From Lacrimispora sphenoides (GTDB taxonomy: Bacteria; Bacillota; Clostridia; Lachnospirales; Lachnospiraceae): 64,000 bases of DNA. The stretch lies in the NCBI RefSeq assembly GCF_900105215.1, contig NZ_FOIP01000001.1:3474501-3538500 (forward strand), written 5' to 3'. Positions within the stretch are counted from its first letter, which is position 1; the number at the start of each line of letters is the position of its first letter. The notes under the pieces are model-generated. The model did no database searches, was not told where the DNA came from, and saw only the letters and a list, made by a program, of their open reading frames with translations. Below, in pieces: positions 19,406 to 29,350 of the stretch. The position numbers and the translations under genes are program-made.

Positions 19406-19531
19406 TGCGGAATAATTGTGGCGTTATGAGTGCAAAATTCTTTGGATGCATCATAGGATTCAGGAAAAATCCATCAACCAGGTACGGACTTCTATGGCGA
19501 TTTGAAAAATAAAATTTATAAATAAATAGAG

Positions 19532-19572
19532 GAAAGAGCATCCTTTCATGTATGGGGATGCTCTTTCTTTTC
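19532..19572 (+). terminator. Rho-independent terminator downstream of the P-type ATPase
   Basis: The stem GAAAGAGCATCC / GGATGCTCTTTC (12 bp, loop of 12) is followed by TTTTCC. It lies 127 bases after the ATPase stop. The remaining stretch to 19777 holds no gene that I can support, apart from a TATAAT at 19682-19687 that may be the -10 of the next operon without a clear -35. Confidence 0.8.
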
Positions 19573-19777
19573 CATTATTTATTGATTATCAACTCATTTA
19601 CGTATCCAAAGGAACACGGAGTTCGTTTAAATTTTATAAATCTGACAGGAAATTAATAAAAAAACATAAAAAGTGCTACAATATAATACTGCGCTATTTT
19701 TTATAGAAAAACAGACAAACTATCTGTAAAAAGATTTGTTATGCCGGAAGGATTTCTTAAATAAGGAGGAGCTTCAA

Positions 19778-22700
19778 TTGCAGAGCTTTTTGGAAAAAAT
19801 TAAGTTTTATATAAATTCACCGTTTCTGCTGAATATTCTATTGCTGCTGGCTGCGTCGATCTGCCTTGTACTATTCATTTTGTATTACCGGCGTTATCAT
19901 TTTAGTAAGAACGTGCATTTCCCGGACTGCTTCCAGGGAGAAGAAAATAAACTTGACCCAAGCGAGTGGGAGAAGCAGATGCTTGTTCTTGCAGAAGGTC
20001 ATGGCCAGGTCAGGCTGGTGGGACGCAGCTTTGTTCTTAATGATTATAATCAGGCTGCTTATAAAAAACTGAATAAAATAAGAGACAGCATCTCTGCCGT
20101 ATCTACGGATATCATTTCCCTGATACCGGCAGCACGCTGGCTCTTTGACAATTTCCAGATGCTGTACCGGGAAATTAAAAAGGTCCGTACATCAGGAACC
20201 AGCTATGCCGTTTTGCCGGTTCTGGAGGGAAAGGAATACCGGAACTTCCCCCGTATCTATGTTGTGGCAAAAAAAATGGTGGCTCTTTCCGGCGGGCACT
20301 TAAGTGAAGAAAACATTTCTGTGATGTTAAAGGCTTATCAGCAGAAGATCCCCCTTACAGACAAGGAAATCTGGGTTTTGCCGGAAGTGCTGGCTTTTTG
20401 TATACTTGAAGAAATCATTGTAATTGCGGAAGAAATTCTTCATATGATTGATGTGAAATCAAAGGCAGAAAAGTTTCTCCGTGATAAGCTGGCAGATAAA
20501 AAGGGACCGGCCGATATATCCGCGCTGCTTTGCAAAACAGAGGATAACTTAAGGCTTAATTACTCTTTCCATGCCCATGTAATACACCTGCTGAAGAACC
20601 TGTCTTTTGATGAGGCTTCCATTCAAAAATACCTGGAACATCACTTTTCTTCCCTGGAGAGACAGGTAAAGACCTCCGGCATATTCATGGAGGAAGGAAA
20701 GATTGAATCATTTCTTGAGACAAATATCCGGACCTTGATTGTCAGCCTGAGGGATATCAATGAAGTTGATGAAGAAAAGTTCTTTGAGGAATATTCCTAT
20801 TTGGAGCAGATTTTATCACAGGATCCGGATGGGGTATATCCAAAGATGGATTTGGAATCCAGGGGCATGTACCGTGGGGTAATCGTTATATTATCGCACC
20901 GTTACCGGCTGTTGGAGGAAAAGATAGCGGGAGACTGTCTGGAGCTGGCGGTTCAGGGCAGAGAGGACCTGCATTGTTCCCATCATGTGGGTTCCTATCT
21001 TTTGGGTAAGGGGTATCCGATTTTAAAAGCAAAGGCGTTAGGAAAGCCGATTCCTCAAAATATTAAAAAAAGGATGAATGTAAGCGGCTTCCTTTATTTC
21101 CTAACCATGTTCCTTATTATTCCGATACTTTGTGCCTGTCTGCTTTATGCCTTTTGGAACCTTGGGGGGCTTAGGAATATCAGCCGGCTAGTCATTCTCT
21201 TTTTATCGGTAATGCCGCTGTTAATGGGTATTTCCATAGAGCTTACAAATTTTATTTTTACTAGAAGAATTAAAGTAAAGAAGATTCCTTCTCTGAACTA
21301 TCTGGAGGAAATACCAGAGGATGCAAAAACTTTTGTGGTTATGCCGGTTATTGTCTCCTCTAAGGAACAGGGCCTGGGGTACATGGAACGTCTTCAAAAG
21401 CATTATCTGGCAAACAGTCAGTCCAATCTTTACTTTGCATTGCTGCTTGATTTTGCGGATTCCCCGGACGAGTTCATGGAAAATGACAAGGTGATTGAGA
21501 ACGCCCTTGCTGCACGTATGAAGGAGTTAAATGAGCTCTATCCGTCGGAACAGCAGCGCTTTTCCTTATTCTTCCGCTGCCGCAAATGGAATAAAGCGGA
21601 GAACTGTTATATGGGCTGGGAGCGTAAAAGAGGAAAGCTGGAAGAGTTTAATAACCTTTTAAATGGAGAAGAAAAGGAGAATACCACCTTTTCCTCTATT
21701 TACTGCGACGAAAAGCTCCTTTCCACCTTCCGGTATGTAATCACGCTGGATGCGGATACCAATCTGCTTCGTGACAATGCCGCAAAACTGGTCGGTCTGA
21801 TTGATCATCCTTTAAATAAGCCGATTCTTGACCCGGCAGGCCAAAAGGTAGAAGAAGGCTATGTCATCATTCAACCTTCAGTAAGAAACCATATTGTGGA
21901 TAAGAACGGCAGCAGGTTTGCGAAAATCTTCGGTGGGGAATCGGGCCTGGCTCATTACGGAACCGTAATATCAGATATTTACCAGGATATTTTTAATAAG
22001 GGAATCTATACCGGAAAGGGCATCTACGATCGGGAGGCCTTTCACAAGGTGCTTCAGAACAAGGTACCGGAAAACAGGATTCTCAGTCATGACCTTTTTG
22101 AGAGCTGCTATGCAAGGACGGCTTTTTCCAGTACAGTCAAGATTATGGACAATTTTCCAACCAGTGTTTTATCCTTTACCAAAAGGGAACACCGATGGCT
22201 GCGCGGGGACTGGCAGCTGCTGCCCTGGCTGTTTTTAAGAAAAACCCAGGATGGTAAAAACTTATGTGCGCTGTCAAAATGGAAGATCTTTGACAACTTA
22301 AGAAGAAGCATGGTTCCTTTAAGTAAGACGTTATTTGTATTGTTTAATCTGGCATGGATGCCTAAGGCATATTATCTTTGGTTACCCATTGTATTCTTTA
22401 ATGATATATTTACTCTGGTGATTCTTTTGCTTGCAGTTATCACCCAGAAGCTGATACGTCCAAAACTTGCCCTTGTTTATAAATGCTTTTTTAGAGAACT
22501 TGCTGCAATGCTTTATCGGGCACTCCTGGAGTTTACAATTACTCCTTACCGAGCTTATGTCGCAACGGATGCAATGATCAGAACCATGTACCGGATCTTT
22601 ATCAGCAAAAAAAATCTGCTTCGCTGGAATACGGCGGAAGCAGTGGACGCCTCCATAGTCAATACCAGAAGGGGATATTTTATCACTATGTGGAGTTCTC

Positions 22701-25700
22701 TTCTTCCGGCGGCTGCCCTTTTAATAATCTTATTTATGGGACATTTAAACCCGGCCGGAATGATTTTGACAGCAATCGTAATTGCCGACTGGTGCTTTGC
22801 CTCCCAAATCGCCTACGGGATCAGTCAGCCGGATAAAAAGCTTCAACTTAAGAATATAGCACAGAACAATGAACTGCTCCTGGATACTGCACGCAGAACC
22901 TGGCAGTTTTTTAAGGAGCTTTCCACGAAGGAAAATAACTGGCTCTGTCCGGATAATTACCAGATTTCAATGGTGGAAAAAGTCAGCGATAAAACATCGC
23001 CGACCAATATGGGACTTCAGTTTCTGGCAATCCTGTCAGCCAGGGATTTTGGTTTCGAAACGTTAAGCTCTACGGTTGAAGTGGTGGAAAATCTGATGGA
23101 AACGATTCAGAAAATGCCCAAATTTAATGGGCATCTTTATAACTGGTATCATATCGGGACCCTGGAGGTATTAAACCCTGCCTATATATCAACCGTTGAC
23201 AGCGGCAATTTCCTGGGTCATCTGGTGGCGCTGAAAAATGGACTTCTGGAACAGATAGACAGGCCGGTATATCCGGAGAATTTTCTGTCCGAGCTCAGGA
23301 TTGCGGTTCATAACTGCAATGGAGAACTTCGGATAAGAAAAGGCAGCCCTGCCGGACATGAACTGAAACCAAGGTATCAAAGGATAGGGGAGCTGATAGA
23401 CGATATTGCGCAAATCAGGGAAGATTTAAACCATAGGGAGCTTTCATCGCCGGAAGACTACCCCTGGACCAGACAGTTAATGAATCTCATTGACAGCACT
23501 GTAAAAGAAGCTGAAGCTTTAAAACTGAAGGAGAAGACCTATTTTTCTTATCCTTCCCTTCGCATTATTACATCGGAGGACAATAAATTTGCGGATAGCA
23601 TGATAGAACGGATCAGAGCGCTCAGCAATAAAATAGACGGCATTTTAACAAATGTAGATTTCCGTTTTCTATTTAACGAAAAGAGAATGCTGTTCCACAT
23701 CGGGTATCATGTTTCCTCCCACACGCTAGATGAAGGCTGCTATGACCTTATGGCGTCTGAATCGGCGCTTACAAGCCTTCTTGCCATAGCCATGGGAGAA
23801 GTGCCGTTAAAGCATTGGAATAAACTGGGAAGACCGCTGACCATTGTGGGAGGCATTCCCTGCTTTGTGTCCTGGAGCGGTACGATGTTTGAATATCTGA
23901 TGCCAAATCTCGTATTCAAAGAATATGAAGACTCCGTCTATGCACAGACTTCCAGGGCGGCGGTGCTCCAGCATATGAAGTATGCAAAAGAGGCGGAAAT
24001 ACCCTGGGGAATATCGGAATCCCAGTATTACCGGTTCGATTTAAACTCGAATTACCAGTACAAAGCCTTCGGTGTTCCGAAGATAAGGCTTCAGCCGGTC
24101 CGTAAGAATTCCATGGTGGTTGCTCCCTATGCGACGATGCTGGCACTGGATATTGCAGAAGAAGAGTGTATGGAAAACTTAAAACGTCTGAAGGAATTAG
24201 GCGCTTACGGCACTTACGGTTTCTATGAATCCGTAGATTTTAATGTGCCGAATTCTGTGGAACTGACCCCTTATTGCATTGTAAAATCCTATATGGCCCA
24301 TCATCAGGGGATGAATCTGGCTGCAATTAATAATTACCTGAATGGGGGAATCCTTCGGGAGAGGTTTCACGGGGAGATGATGATAAAAGCCACAGAAGTT
24401 CTGCTGGAAGAAAAACGTCAGTCCTATTTGATTTCCATTGCAAAGCAGGGATATACCATAAAGATCGGAAAGCCTCTTTTTAAAGAAGACATTTACAGCA
24501 ACCGGTATGTCAACCGTACCGGCATGAATCCGCCGGTTGTGAATTATTTATCAAATGGTAATTATTCACTGATGATAACCACCGATGGGGATGGCTTCAG
24601 TAAATATGAAGACCGGATGCTTTACCGTTTCCGGTCGGATATTTATGCGAATACAGGTAATTATATCTATATCAAAGATATGAAGCGGGGGAAGGTCTGG
24701 AGTGCCGCTTATCATCCGACCAGAAAGACACCGGATGCTTACCAGGTAATTTTCAGCCCGCACCAGGCCGAATTTAAACGCAGGGATGGAGATATCTCAT
24801 CGCACATGATTGTCAGCTTAAATGCGGACCAAAACTATGAGATACGTAAAGTCATCTTCACCAATCACGGGAATGAGGAAAAACACTTGGAGGTGACCAG
24901 CTATTTAGAGGTGGTGGATGATACCCATCTGGCAGAAATAAGCCATCCTGCATTCAATAAACTTTTCCTGGAGAGTGAGTACCTGGAAGAGCAGGACATC
25001 TTTCTGGCAAAAAGACGGCGGAAGGATAATGATGATGATGATAATTCTTATATGATGCACATGGTTAGAACCGGAACAAAGCTATGCAAAAAACTGGAAT
25101 ATGAAAATGATAGAAAACGCTTTATCGGAAGAAACAACACCCTGGAAAATCCAGATTCAGTGGTTAATAGCATTGCCTTTTTAAATAATTCAGGCTTTTG
25201 CAATGACCCAATCATGAGCCTGCGGGCACAGATCTGCATAGGGGCAGGTGAAACCGCCTGCATTTCATTTATTACCGGAGTGTGCGGAAGTAAAGAGGAA
25301 GCAATAAAAATCGCAGGGGAATTAAATGTAAGCTACCGGATCGATGATATCCTGGAAAAATTCCGGCTTCAAACGAACCTGGAGTTAAAGTATCTGGAGA
25401 TTACCAGAGCCCAGTTAAACGCTTTTCAGGACTTAATCAGCCCTGTCTTCTATCCTTCGGGCATTTACCGGGGGCCGGCTGAAAATATAAGGCGGAACTT
25501 TATGAATCAAAGCTTCCTGTGGAAATTCGGTGTGTCAGGGGATAACCCCATTCTGCTTTTAATGGTCCGCTCCATGAAAGAGGAAAGAATCGTAAAGGAT
25601 GCATTAAAGGCTTACGAATATTTAAGAATTAACCGTGTTATGGTGGATTTAATTATCCTGATTGATTCCAAGCATGGGTATCATCAGGAGGTGGATGAAT

Positions 25701-25903
25701 TAATCAACGATATGACAAGCTCTCTTCGAATCTATGATTCCAGAAGCGAGAAGCCAAGCTTCTTTACGCTGCATACGTATGAGATGAAACCGGCGGAGCT
25801 TGATTTGCTGTATACGGTAGCACGGGTCGTATTTTCAGAGAAAACTGGGATCTATTTTACCAATGGCAAAGAACAACAGTATGAATTGCTTGAAGAATAT
25901 TAG
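19778..25903 (+). CDS. Cyclic beta-1,2-glucan synthase, N-terminal polypeptide (GT84 + cyclisation domain + first GH94-type sandwich)
   Basis: A 2041-residue membrane protein matching the first two thirds of NdvB-type cyclic beta-1,2-glucan synthases (usually about 2800 residues). Order: one N-terminal membrane helix (about 10-32), a helical region, two helices near 437-485, a GT84 glycosyltransferase with the DXD-like motif LDADT (Asp658, Asp660) and RWLRGDWQ (806-813), more membrane helices (850-1010), the glycoamylase-like cyclisation domain now placed in GH189 (about 1035-1520; FVSWSGTMFEYLMP, GISESQYY), then a GH94-associated beta-sandwich ending with the WKFGVSGDNPILLL segment. The start is TTG 19778 with AAGGAGGAG six bases upstream. 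It stops exactly before the catalytic GH94 module, which is encoded by the next gene. UDP-glucose is the family's donor. Confidence 0.9.
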   Translation: MQSFLEKIKFYINSPFLLNILLLLAASICLVLFILYYRRYHFSKNVHFPDCFQGEENKLDPSEWEKQMLVLAEGHGQVRLVGRSFVLNDYNQAAYKKLNKIRDSISAVSTDIISLIPAARWLFDNFQMLYREIKKVRTSGTSYAVLPVLEGKEYRNFPRIYVVAKKMVALSGGHLSEENISVMLKAYQQKIPLTDKEIWVLPEVLAFCILEEIIVIAEEILHMIDVKSKAEKFLRDKLADKKGPADISALLCKTEDNLRLNYSFHAHVIHLLKNLSFDEASIQKYLEHHFSSLERQVKTSGIFMEEGKIESFLETNIRTLIVSLRDINEVDEEKFFEEYSYLEQILSQDPDGVYPKMDLESRGMYRGVIVILSHRYRLLEEKIAGDCLELAVQGREDLHCSHHVGSYLLGKGYPILKAKALGKPIPQNIKKRMNVSGFLYFLTMFLIIPILCACLLYAFWNLGGLRNISRLVILFLSVMPLLMGISIELTNFIFTRRIKVKKIPSLNYLEEIPEDAKTFVVMPVIVSSKEQGLGYMERLQKHYLANSQSNLYFALLLDFADSPDEFMENDKVIENALAARMKELNELYPSEQQRFSLFFRCRKWNKAENCYMGWERKRGKLEEFNNLLNGEEKENTTFSSIYCDEKLLSTFRYVITLDADTNLLRDNAAKLVGLIDHPLNKPILDPAGQKVEEGYVIIQPSVRNHIVDKNGSRFAKIFGGESGLAHYGTVISDIYQDIFNKGIYTGKGIYDREAFHKVLQNKVPENRILSHDLFESCYARTAFSSTVKIMDNFPTSVLSFTKREHRWLRGDWQLLPWLFLRKTQDGKNLCALSKWKIFDNLRRSMVPLSKTLFVLFNLAWMPKAYYLWLPIVFFNDIFTLVILLLAVITQKLIRPKLALVYKCFFRELAAMLYRALLEFTITPYRAYVATDAMIRTMYRIFISKKNLLRWNTAEAVDASIVNTRRGYFITMWSSLLPAAALLIILFMGHLNPAGMILTAIVIADWCFASQIAYGISQPDKKLQLKNIAQNNELLLDTARRTWQFFKELSTKENNWLCPDNYQISMVEKVSDKTSPTNMGLQFLAILSARDFGFETLSSTVEVVENLMETIQKMPKFNGHLYNWYHIGTLEVLNPAYISTVDSGNFLGHLVALKNGLLEQIDRPVYPENFLSELRIAVHNCNGELRIRKGSPAGHELKPRYQRIGELIDDIAQIREDLNHRELSSPEDYPWTRQLMNLIDSTVKEAEALKLKEKTYFSYPSLRIITSEDNKFADSMIERIRALSNKIDGILTNVDFRFLFNEKRMLFHIGYHVSSHTLDEGCYDLMASESALTSLLAIAMGEVPLKHWNKLGRPLTIVGGIPCFVSWSGTMFEYLMPNLVFKEYEDSVYAQTSRAAVLQHMKYAKEAEIPWGISESQYYRFDLNSNYQYKAFGVPKIRLQPVRKNSMVVAPYATMLALDIAEEECMENLKRLKELGAYGTYGFYESVDFNVPNSVELTPYCIVKSYMAHHQGMNLAAINNYLNGGILRERFHGEMMIKATEVLLEEKRQSYLISIAKQGYTIKIGKPLFKEDIYSNRYVNRTGMNPPVVNYLSNGNYSLMITTDGDGFSKYEDRMLYRFRSDIYANTGNYIYIKDMKRGKVWSAAYHPTRKTPDAYQVIFSPHQAEFKRRDGDISSHMIVSLNADQNYEIRKVIFTNHGNEEKHLEVTSYLEVVDDTHLAEISHPAFNKLFLESEYLEEQDIFLAKRRRKDNDDDDNSYMMHMVRTGTKLCKKLEYENDRKRFIGRNNTLENPDSVVNSIAFLNNSGFCNDPIMSLRAQICIGAGETACISFITGVCGSKEEAIKIAGELNVSYRIDDILEKFRLQTNLELKYLEITRAQLNAFQDLISPVFYPSGIYRGPAENIRRNFMNQSFLWKFGVSGDNPILLLMVRSMKEERIVKDALKAYEYLRINRVMVDLIILIDSKHGYHQEVDELINDMTSSLRIYDSRSEKPSFFTLHTYEMKPAELDLLYTVARVVFSEKTGIYFTNGKEQQYELLEEY

Positions 25904-25922
25904 GCTTTAAGGAGGAAGGGTT

Positions 25923-28355
25923 TTGGACACAGCATATGCACCTATAACACAGGAGAAAGAAACAGAGAATTATGAATTTTTTAACGGCTTCGGGGCATTT
26001 GCCTGTGAAGGCAGGGAATATGAAATTCTGCTGGAGGGTAATAACCGGCCGCCGGCACCCTGGATTAATGTTGTCTCAAATAAAAACTTTGGATTCCAGA
26101 TATCGGAGTCTGGTGCCGGATTTACCTGGAGTATCAACAGCAGGGAGAATAAGCTGACTCCATGGTCCAATGACCCAGTCAGTGACAGAGCCTCTGAGGC
26201 AATCTATATTCTGGATGAAATATCCGGTGAGGTAATGACTCCCATGTCCTTAGGAAGGTCTGACCGGGGCACTTACCGGGTAAGGCATGGCTTTGGATAC
26301 AGCAGGTTCCTTCATGAGGAAGCTCTTATTAATCAGGAGCTGACTGTTTTTACTCCTTTGGATGAGTCATTAAAGCTATGGAGCCTTACGCTTACCAACC
26401 GCTCGGATAAAGTGAAATATTTAAGCCTGACCTATTATGTGGAATGGGTTTTGGGAACCCAGGGAGAGCAAACCAATCCCTATATACTGACCTCCTATAA
26501 CAATGAGCATGAATGTTTATATTCAAAGAACATTTATACCATGAACTTTCAAAACACCTATTCCTACCTGTTTTCCAGTGAAACCATCATCGGTTATACC
26601 GGGGACAGGAAGGAGTTTCTGGGGCAAAAGGGCAGTGTCCGGGAGCCGCGGGGAGCGGAGGTCAAGCTATCCTGCAATACGGGGGTATGCTATGATCCCT
26701 GCGGAGCTATTCAGGTATCCGTTGCATTACAGCCGCAAGAGAGCAAGACAGTGTTGTTTGGCCTGGGGCAGAGCACCAGCCTTGAAGAGATATACAAAAT
26801 CAGAAATAAGTACAGGGAAACCGCCGCTTCTGAAAAGGAGCTTGAAAGGGTGAGAACCTATTGGGACGGTTTATTAGGGACGGTTAAAGTCAAAACAAAG
26901 GACAGGGCAGTGGACATCCTGGTGAATGGCTGGCTGCTTTATCAGACGGTATCCTGCCGCATTCAGGCAAGAGCAGGCTTTTATCAGTGTGGAGGAGCCT
27001 ATGGATACCGGGACCAGCTGCAGGATACCCTTTCCCTTCTCTTTGCGGATTCCAGTATTTTGCGCAGGCAAATTCTTATTGCCTGCAGCAGGCAGTTTGA
27101 AGAGGGCGATGTCCAGCACTGGTGGCATCCTCCTATGGGGATCGGTGTGAGAACGAGAATCACCGATGATTTGCTGTGGCTGCCTTATTGCACCGCTGCT
27201 TATATCCGAAGTACCGGAGATACTACAATTTTAAAAGAGCAGGTCCCTTATATCAAGGGTCCGTTGCTTAAGGAGGGGGAGCACGATATGATGTTTACCC
27301 CGGATATATCCCAAAGCTTTGAAAGTGTTTATGAACATTGCAAAAAAGCCATCGGCCGGACAAACTTCGGAGAGCATGGACTTCCTCTCATGGGGGGCGG
27401 CGACTGGAATGACGGTATGAATGAGGTAGGAATAGAGGGAAAGGGAGAGAGTGTCTGGCTGGCATGGTTTTTCTATACGGTGCTGGGGGATTTCATTCCT
27501 TTGTGCAGTCAGGAGAATGATGAGGCTTACGGCCGGGAACTGGAGCAGAAACGGGAAGGCCTGCTTCAAAGCATCGAAGAACACACCTGGGATGGGGAGT
27601 GGTATCTTCGTGCCTTTTACGACGACGGCTCGAAGCTGGGATCCAAGGAAAATGATGAGTGCCGGATCGATTCCATCAGTCAGTCCTGGAGCGTGATATC
27701 AAAGGGAGCAAAAGAGGATCGGGCAAAAACGGCAATGCAGTCGGCATGGCGTTATCTCCTAAGAGAGGAAGAGGCTATTTCCCTGCTTTTGACGCCGCCC
27801 TTTAATAAAACAAGCAAAAACCCAGGTTATATCAAAAATTACATCCCAGGTATGCGGGAAAACGGAGGCCAGTATACCCATGCGGCGGTTTGGCTGGCGA
27901 TTGCCACGTCAATGCTCCGTGACTATCACATGGCACAAACTCTGTTCACCATACTTAATCCGATTCACGTGACGCAAACCAGGAAGGATGTGCTCAGGTA
28001 CGAGAAGGAGCCTTATGTCATGACGGCGGATATCTCCTTAAGCCCTCCTTATACCGGAAGAGGCGGATGGAGCTGGTATACCGGATCCGCAGGCTGGATG
28101 TACCAGGGATTATTAAGCTGGTTTCTTGGCATTCGGAAAGAGGTAAATGAACTGGTCATTGATCCGGCCACGCCGGCAAGCTTCGGCGATTTTTCCATTG
28201 AGTATAAGTATGGCAGGTCTATCTATGAAATCAGAGTCGAAAGCAGAAGCAAGGGAACGCTGACAACGGAAGCAATCACTGTAGATGACAAGCTCATAAA
28301 AGGGAATAGGGTTTTGCTTGTGGATGACGGAGAAAAGCATCTGGTTATCGTATAG
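25923..28355 (+). CDS. Cyclic beta-1,2-glucan synthase, C-terminal GH94 polypeptide
   Basis: An 810-residue protein equal to the last part of NdvB-type synthases: second beta-sandwich (NGFGAFACEGREYEI, SRENKLTPWSNDPVSD, EWVLG) and the GH94 helical barrel with the catalytic DWND motif (GGGDWNDGMN, Asp494/Asp497), GAYGYRDQLQDTLSL and the phosphate/sugar loops HWWHPP and ARGGWSWYTGSAGWMY-like segments. In intact synthases this domain trims the linear glucan by phosphorolysis and so sets chain length before cyclisation. The start is TTG at 25923 behind AAGGAGGA (25909-25916), 19 bases after the upstream stop. The frame differs from that of the upstream gene and has its own TAA just before the ribosome site, so this is a separate translation unit, not simple read-through. 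It has no signal peptide. It could alternatively act alone as a beta-1,2-oligoglucan phosphorylase. Confidence 0.88.
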   Translation: MDTAYAPITQEKETENYEFFNGFGAFACEGREYEILLEGNNRPPAPWINVVSNKNFGFQISESGAGFTWSINSRENKLTPWSNDPVSDRASEAIYILDEISGEVMTPMSLGRSDRGTYRVRHGFGYSRFLHEEALINQELTVFTPLDESLKLWSLTLTNRSDKVKYLSLTYYVEWVLGTQGEQTNPYILTSYNNEHECLYSKNIYTMNFQNTYSYLFSSETIIGYTGDRKEFLGQKGSVREPRGAEVKLSCNTGVCYDPCGAIQVSVALQPQESKTVLFGLGQSTSLEEIYKIRNKYRETAASEKELERVRTYWDGLLGTVKVKTKDRAVDILVNGWLLYQTVSCRIQARAGFYQCGGAYGYRDQLQDTLSLLFADSSILRRQILIACSRQFEEGDVQHWWHPPMGIGVRTRITDDLLWLPYCTAAYIRSTGDTTILKEQVPYIKGPLLKEGEHDMMFTPDISQSFESVYEHCKKAIGRTNFGEHGLPLMGGGDWNDGMNEVGIEGKGESVWLAWFFYTVLGDFIPLCSQENDEAYGRELEQKREGLLQSIEEHTWDGEWYLRAFYDDGSKLGSKENDECRIDSISQSWSVISKGAKEDRAKTAMQSAWRYLLREEEAISLLLTPPFNKTSKNPGYIKNYIPGMRENGGQYTHAAVWLAIATSMLRDYHMAQTLFTILNPIHVTQTRKDVLRYEKEPYVMTADISLSPPYTGRGGWSWYTGSAGWMYQGLLSWFLGIRKEVNELVIDPATPASFGDFSIEYKYGRSIYEIRVESRSKGTLTTEAITVDDKLIKGNRVLLVDDGEKHLVIV

Positions 28356-28426
28356 TACCTTGTTTTGCTGTTCCTGGGAGACAGATTCCCAAAGCAACAG
28401 GAATGGGAAATCGGAAAGGAGGTAAC

Positions 28427-29350
28427 ATGAAGACTGACAGACGATTGAATCATGCATATAAAAATGCTGATGTTGTGTATTTTGATGATAATTCAAAATA
28501 TATATTTTTTAGTGATATCCACAGAGGGGATGACAGCATCTCAGATGAATTTACCAGAAATCAGAATGTTTTTTTGCATGCATTAAATTACTATTATAAA
28601 GAAGGATATGAATATATAGAAGTTGGAGATGGAGATGAGCTTTGGGAATACAAGAATTTTAGTGTTATCCGTTTAGCCCACAGCGATGTTTTTACAGTAA
28701 TCAAAAAGTTTTATGATGAAGGCCGCTTTATCATGTTATATGGGAATCATAATATTTATTTAAAGTCAAAGCTATTTATCAGAGAAAATTATTATCAATA
28801 TTATGATGAATACAATCAAATGCGAGTGGACTTATACAGGGGACTGAAGCCGAAGGAGGCAATCATTCTTAAACACAAGAAAACCAAACAGAAGATTTTT
28901 GTGCTTCATGGGCATCAGGGTGACATTATGAATGATCAGCTATGGCTTTTTTCCATGTTATTACTTCGATACTTTTGGAGGTATCTGCATATCGTTGGAT
29001 TCGGCAATCCAACCAGCCCGGCCCGTAATTTATTTAAAAGACATAAAGTTGAGAAGGTTTATGACAGATGGATAGAAAAAAATAAAATGATGCTGATCTG
29101 TGGACATACTCACAGACCAAAGTTTCCGAAAGAAGATGACCTTCCATACTTTAATACTGGCTGCTGCACACGTACCCGTGGGATTAATGGGATTGAGATT
29201 ATAAATGGCATGATACAAATGGTTGACTGGAGAATTGCTGCCAATGAAAAAGGAGAATTGCGTGTTCACAGGACAGTAGTTAGAGGACCGGTAGCCCTTG
29301 AAAAATATGATTATAAAAATAATCCTTTTTCAACTCATTATAATAACTAA
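28427..29350 (+). CDS. Calcineurin-like metallophosphoesterase
   Basis: A 307-residue metallophosphoesterase. Metal ligands appear in order: SDIHRGDD (DxH), EVGDGDELWE (GDxxE-like), YGNHN (GNH), HGHQGD and CGHTHRP (GHxH). The overall layout, with GDGDELW and the late FNTGCC segment, resembles the UDP-2,3-diacylglucosamine hydrolase/LpxH-like group that in Gram-positives has no lipid A substrate. ATG 28427 has AAAGGAGG four bases upstream; an earlier in-frame ATG (28403) is less likely. It is close behind the glucan synthase genes and may be part of the same transcription unit, hydrolysing a nucleotide-sugar or phospholipid-linked product; that is a guess from position. Confidence 0.85.
   Translation: MKTDRRLNHAYKNADVVYFDDNSKYIFFSDIHRGDDSISDEFTRNQNVFLHALNYYYKEGYEYIEVGDGDELWEYKNFSVIRLAHSDVFTVIKKFYDEGRFIMLYGNHNIYLKSKLFIRENYYQYYDEYNQMRVDLYRGLKPKEAIILKHKKTKQKIFVLHGHQGDIMNDQLWLFSMLLLRYFWRYLHIVGFGNPTSPARNLFKRHKVEKVYDRWIEKNKMMLICGHTHRPKFPKEDDLPYFNTGCCTRTRGINGIEIINGMIQMVDWRIAANEKGELRVHRTVVRGPVALEKYDYKNNPFSTHYNN

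Follow-up and report, generated by a model that had tools for sequence, protein, structure and literature searches.

The window, which is the whole stretch of 64,000 nucleotides of Lacrimispora sphenoides DNA analysed here, carries two adjacent genes with the parts of a cyclic beta-1,2-glucan synthase, and the question that this locus raises is whether their products work as one enzyme and how the division came about. We consider it probable that the pair is a two-gene cyclic beta-1,2-glucan synthase that arose by gene fission and in which a docked chain 2 would trim the glucan in trans. The split itself, its conservation and ancestry, the kept residues and the folds, as predictions, come from the analysis below.

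The gene pair and the position of the cut

The features of the locus are the following.

5' of the hairpin below: upstream gene, putatively read as a P-type ATPase
19528..19571, + strand: terminator-like hairpin between the upstream gene and chain 1 (18-pair stem, T-rich tail; consensus match only)
19653..19682, + strand: promoter-like site 5' of chain 1 (9/12 matches, TG before the second hexamer)
19763..19769, + strand: ribosome-binding site AAGGAGG of chain 1, by sequence reading
19778..25903, + strand: chain 1 gene, 2041 aa, TTG start, TAG stop at 25901-25903; aligned to 8rf0 residues 82-1997
21137..22639, + strand: GT84 region, aligned to 8rf0 422-918; D624, D626, D739 and primer Y694 kept
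22814..24466, + strand: GH189 cyclase (CY) region; E1300 and E1386 kept; limits approximate, transferred by hand from the alignment to 8rf0
24467..25399, + strand: GP1, the first GH94-type supersandwich (PF06165), approximate limits
25400..25900, + strand: RFL, the Rossmann-fold-like domain at the C-terminus of chain 1, approximate start (8rf0 alignment to 1997, AlphaFold2, Foldseek)
25901..25922, + strand: junction, with the TAG stop, TAA at 25908-25910, AAGGAGGA at 25909-25916 and a spacer
25923..28355, + strand: chain 2 gene, 810 aa, TTG start; GP2 and GP3, the catalytic GH94 phosphorylase; residues 13-781 correspond to 8rf0 2040-2811
28403-29350, + strand: metallophosphoesterase gene, starting 47 bases after chain 2

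Two long open reading frames on the + strand, the Pfam matches and the alignment to 8rf0 bear out the original prediction of a CGS/NdvB-type synthase in two genes that is cut at a domain boundary. The genes lie in different frames with 19 bases between them and both start with TTG behind an AAGGAGG box, which for chain 2 is part of AAGGAGGA, so that the ribosome site, the TTG start and the separate frame claimed for the second gene were all found. The chain-2 frame is stopped by the TAA at 25908-25910, 5' of the chain-2 start, and a frameshift near the junction could therefore not fuse the chains. The start of chain 1 was set at 19778, since many homologues of ~2038-2042 aa fit this position, 19736 being merely the first possible start codon of the open reading frame. 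The gap between the genes holds no promoter-like or terminator-like match, and on this ground we infer an operon, with both chains likely on one transcript. Such matches do occur inside both genes, for example a terminator-like one at 25244-25261 and a promoter-like one at 26182-26210; over the region, promoter-like sites are not above chance (18 found, 25.8 expected) and terminator-like matches are (21 found, 11.1 expected).

The best solved relative of both chains is the Agrobacterium tumefaciens Cgs (8rf0/8rf9), which is covered over almost its full length. Chain 1 has the order NTD (NdvB/Cgs), GT84, GH189 cyclase, GP1 and RFL; in Pfam it matches PF10091 and one GH94 supersandwich, and chain 2 matches one supersandwich and PF17167, the sandwich plus catalytic GH94 module that had been predicted. 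The prediction that the first polypeptide ends after the first GH94 sandwich needs correction, as chain 1 runs on through RFL and the cut lies between RFL and GP2. Chain 1 continues for 17 residues past the position aligned to 8rf0 1997 and so ends at ~2014, the end of RFL, and chain 2 starts at about 8rf0 residue 2028, which places the cut within the RFL-GP2 linker. The order of domains is thus that of the Agrobacterium Cgs/NdvB (8rf0, 8rf9, 8rfe; PMC10901819), NTD-GT84-CY-GP1-RFL/GP2-GP3, but the latter is one chain of 2818 aa, whereas the synthase in the window is made up of two chains, 2041 aa and 810 aa long. The eight residues checked, catalytic or primer and named in 8rf0 numbering in PMC10901819 and PMC11842490, are all kept here, with D624, D626, D739, Y694, E1300 and E1386 on chain 1 and D2393 and D2528 on chain 2, where D2528 corresponds to D497. 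Both catalytic glutamates of TiCGS from Thermoanaerobacter italicus, the founding member of GH189 (8wy1), also align to chain 1; TiCGS is a multi-domain synthase of which the cyclisation domain was studied alone, and the main text of that paper does not contain the words 'split' or 'separate' (PMC10834661).

Kyte-Doolittle analysis gave seven hydrophobic segments in chain 1 and no TM-like segment in chain 2. AlphaFold2 modelled the C-terminal 496 residues of chain 1 with a mean pLDDT of 80.5, the first 38 and the last 14 residues being below 50, and the model contains four RFL strands; its best Foldseek match is 8rf9 (TMq 0.84), the best folds outside Cgs reaching 0.53. The model of chain 2 (pLDDT 84.4, low at several active-site loops, e.g. 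494-497 and 696-718) matches 8rf0 with a TMq of 0.88 and cellobiose phosphorylases with 0.84-0.86, and chain 2 is, as modelled, a complete GH94 phosphorylase unit. Neither chain has a match in NCBIfam. Among named database records, chain 1 often appears as 'glucoamylase family protein' and in some cases as 'cyclic beta-1,2-glucan synthetase'; frequent labels for chain 2 are 'GH36-type glycosyl hydrolase domain-containing protein' and 'cellobiose phosphorylase'. Such names hide the pair in annotation.

Distribution and conservation of the split

Among 24 other Lacrimispora genomes, 22 have both chains (with pieces or breaks in G005, G015, G017, G019 and G023) and two, G010 (67% complete) and G022 (99% complete), have neither; the near-completeness of G022 indicates that the whole synthase can be lost. 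From a scan of named genomes the best 80 of 165 loci were kept. Loci L081-L136 (n=56) include five one-chain synthases (L123, L128, L129, L134, L135) and three that end before the junction (L110, L112, L130). In 48/48 fetched clade loci that span the junction, among these best 80 of 165, chain 2 follows chain 1 immediately and on the same strand; clade membership of loci too short for the tree was taken from identity, and the 48 are the 47 of a recount plus L118, whose interrupted chain 2 was read separately. In the recount, the chain-1 stop and the first aligned base of chain 2 are 7-91 bases apart, apart from L087 (215) and L101 (220). Named hosts of the two-gene clade include Lacrimispora, Anaerocolumna, Kineothrix, Herbinix, Petrocella, Caproiciproducens, Marasmitruncus and Faecalicatena contorta. 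The original prediction had asked for the same split in related genomes, and had named an isolated mutation among one-chain relatives as the opposite outcome; relatives are split too, the split marks a whole clade, and it recurs in other lineages of Clostridia. The split is old and common to many related bacteria.

Across the window's clade, 37/37 rows keep all eight of the catalytic and primer residues. At most junctions of the clade an AGGAGG-type box precedes a TTG, which most often lies 19-20 bases past the stop (11-41 in most), and in some loci chain 2 starts with ATG; at L115 and L116 the junction scan found no ribosome box. In nine loci (L090-L092, L094, L097, L100, L119, L121, L127), which belong to one subgroup (L. 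xylanisolvens, L. amygdalina, L. defluvii and aerotolerans), the box is absent and an ATG stands 5 bases past the stop. Such a rebuilt second start argues for selection on a separate product.

Several loci deviate in other ways. In L133, L118, L083 and L121 either chain 1 or chain 2 is broken internally, and three of these loci come from MAG records; in L062 (G376) and L080 (G180) chain 1 is apparently cut again, giving three frames per synthase. A gammaproteobacterial MAG (L157) has separate frames near the same junction, which may be an error, and it was left out of the counts. In the L. xylanisolvens/aerotolerans group (L090, L092, L097, L119, L127; genomes G003, G004, G016, G018, G021 and G024) chain 1 is shortened to a frame of 1939 aa, which lacks ~104 residues (1171-1274) of the variable mid-cyclase but keeps both catalytic glutamates.

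Four genes beside the pair in the window were sought at two-gene loci: L081 (L. celerecrescens) has three of them, and the other two-gene loci compared, some of which have little flank, have none in the corresponding position. A functional tie to the downstream metallophosphoesterase or the upstream ATPase was rejected, because these genes keep their place only in L. celerecrescens among the loci compared; L118 and L122 have an ATPase-like gene (31-32%) ~5 kb downstream.

A chain-2-like match at E ≤1e-100 was present in 146 of 391 Clostridia genomes (148 rows), and chain 1 was found in 147. Counted by hand, these rows comprise 112 whose match sits in a single open frame of 2388 aa or more, 19 short frames that stand separately, including the break inside GP2 of G164/L067, 4 low-identity frames that resemble stand-alone genes (3 of the 4 checked), 2 matches at contig ends and 11 frames of middle length and ambiguous class. 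In 299 phylum genomes there was a chain-2 match in 57. A single frame of 2740 aa or more holds it in 38 of them; of the rest, 11 are short frames of low identity, 5 have middle length, 2 are short and ambiguous (G703, G781), and one is the window's own. By these frame counts, one chain is the rule among synthases.

Ancestry of chain 2 and of the split

Canonical GH94 phosphorylases of the size of chain 2 work alone, and chain 2 could likewise be a free cytosolic beta-1,2-oligoglucan phosphorylase that turns linear or surplus glucan into glucose 1-phosphate without contact to chain 1. The complete GH94 fold with no TM-like segment would fit such a role, and stand-alone GH94 genes near ABC-importer genes do exist: the nearest separate GH94 relatives outside synthases, L063-L066 (~800 aa), branch as sisters of the synthase GH94, and their ten scanned neighbours include parts of an ABC importer at 4/4 loci and a LacI regulator at L063 and L066. 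Judged by these genes, their surroundings are a catabolic setting, and unlike chain 2 they have no chain 1 in the fetched stretch. The 11 short frames of low identity in the phylum scan of 299 genomes, at 32-39% identity, are candidate genes of the same kind. In a GH94-only tree with a cellobiose-phosphorylase-like root, however, chain 2 groups with the one-chain L123/L161 (100/100) and L063-L066 fall outside all synthases sampled, the deep order of the synthases being left open. This position, together with a catabolic setting unlike that of chain 2, indicates that chain 2 is by descent, as read from sequence, a piece of a synthase. The known SOGP (5h3z) shares the GH94 fold (Foldseek TMq 0.71), but its deposited chain has 1122 residues, chain 2 has one sandwich, and the similarity is weak, with E = 5.1e-7 over 304-529 only, against 4.8e-219 for Cgs. 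With its place among the synthases and directly behind chain 1 in every readable clade locus, we regard a free phosphorylase as unlikely, although it is the alternative that survives best.

The history of the split was examined with joined proteins. A FastTree of 109 (59 one-chain, 50 two-chain) places the window's 37-row clade on one well-supported branch, with the one-chain L161, L128, L123 and L129 as sister rows and further one-chain synthases outside (L182/L183, L192), and an IQ-TREE analysis of 36 rows under a mixture model agrees on this nesting inside one-chain synthases. The nesting supports gene fission, in which a one-chain synthase would have been cut in the RFL-GP2 linker.

Further two-chain lineages are present in Clostridia (L069-L073, L074, L075-L078, L061 and L079). 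In tblastn the match to their chain 1 breaks off inside RFL or where RFL ends, and in L075-L078 the final portion of RFL is without alignment; judged by eye, their chain 2 starts a few residues ahead of the NG(F/Y)GGF-like motif. L067 was considered as a split as well; since its break sits inside GP2 it was dropped, and the counts and the AU test were repeated. Without L067, the trees require 5 changes with 109 rows or 6 with 35 rows, and of these 6 the starred branches force at least 4; a single origin of the splits is rejected (AU p = 0.00015). With L067, the values were 6 changes (109 rows), 7 changes (36 rows) and p = 2.9e-6. All these exact numbers are soft given the long deep branches, the uneven letter make-up and the SH-aLRT or SH-like support. 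The two-chain group was defined by gene structure, and the choice of the 36 rows and the removal of L067 were made after the trees had been seen.

The opposite direction, in which two chains are ancestral and one-chain synthases are later fusions, draws on GP2 and GP3 making up a complete canonical GH94, on splits in several deep clostridial branches, on joined trees that are unrooted and do not separate fission from fusion, and on the deep order that the rooted GH94-only tree leaves open. The nearest branches of the window's clade are nevertheless one-chain on several sides (L161/L123/L128/L129, then L182/L183 and L192), so the split is derived in this clade, and we consider ancestral two chains very unlikely.

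A proposed model for trimming in trans

We infer the docking, the trimming in trans and the product. The membrane-bound chain 1 would prime on the conserved tyrosine, elongate from UDP-glucose with its GT84 part and cyclise with GH189, and its GP1-RFL C-terminus would serve as the docking face and as half of the glucan-binding surface. Chain 2, as a soluble cytosolic GH94 phosphorylase, would dock on the RFL-GP2 face and, with phosphate, trim the non-reducing end before cyclisation, thus providing length control in trans.

The model leans on the Agrobacterium Cgs, in which the cyclase spans 979-1535, GP begins at 1536 and RFL (1847-2012) lies between GP1 and GP2, with glucan density that starts at RFL, crosses GP2 and reaches the GP3 active site; its ring size is ascribed both to reach along the glucan-binding surface and to phosphorylase trimming (PMC10901819). 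A Brucella Cgs truncated in the phosphorylase domain still makes rings, which are larger (PMC11071196); it amounts to an artificial chain 1 without chain 2, whereas here there is a natural second gene. A complex could also form in which chain 2 is mainly a glucan-handling scaffold and trimming is minor. In the Agrobacterium enzyme, loss of GP catalysis is mild and D2528A has a minor effect, whereas C-terminal truncations are severe, including that at 1846 (PMC10901819); by residue numbers, the latter takes away RFL together with GP2-GP3. Both GP catalytic aspartates, however, are kept in all rows of the window's clade, and a scaffold role is in our view still less probable than ancestral two chains. 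A sequencing error, a frameshift or a decaying gene, for which one could point to the broken frames in L083, L118, L121 and L133 and to the break inside GP2 in L067, can be dismissed, as the original prediction had held, because the same junction recurs in many independent assemblies of other species, complete genomes included, with ribosome sites, starts and catalytic residues kept.

We also looked for traces of an interaction between the chains. In a rate test, RFL and GP2 showed no added constraint since the split that would be specific to the split clades: they are slower than in one-chain Clostridia, but equally slow in one-chain synthases of other phyla, and post-fission constraint was rejected. 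Distances in chain 1 and chain 2 correlate with r = 0.987, and since the same regions of one-chain enzymes give 0.946-0.948, this reflects common descent, not contact.

A more far-reaching form of docked trimming is a detachable length-control subunit that binds reversibly, such that the ring size is tuned, or trimming is switched on and off, by cellular phosphate and by how much chain 2 its own ribosome site yields, the module having been freed several times at the same linker; we put this forward tentatively, as a possibility that is more doubtful than not.

By title and start of abstract, no paper among the open-access matches listed (20 of 2,073 in one search) concerns a two-gene synthase. 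The tolerated natural cut is the linker of the proposed RFL-GP2-GP3 glucan-binding surface. A natural synthase with its trimming unit as a separate gene would offer two parts for purification, mixing and titration, with no need to cut a 300-kDa membrane protein. Through the split, length control would become open to direct titration, the trimming part could be studied, and perhaps regulated, alone, and the two-gene synthase may be a part for making rings of chosen size.
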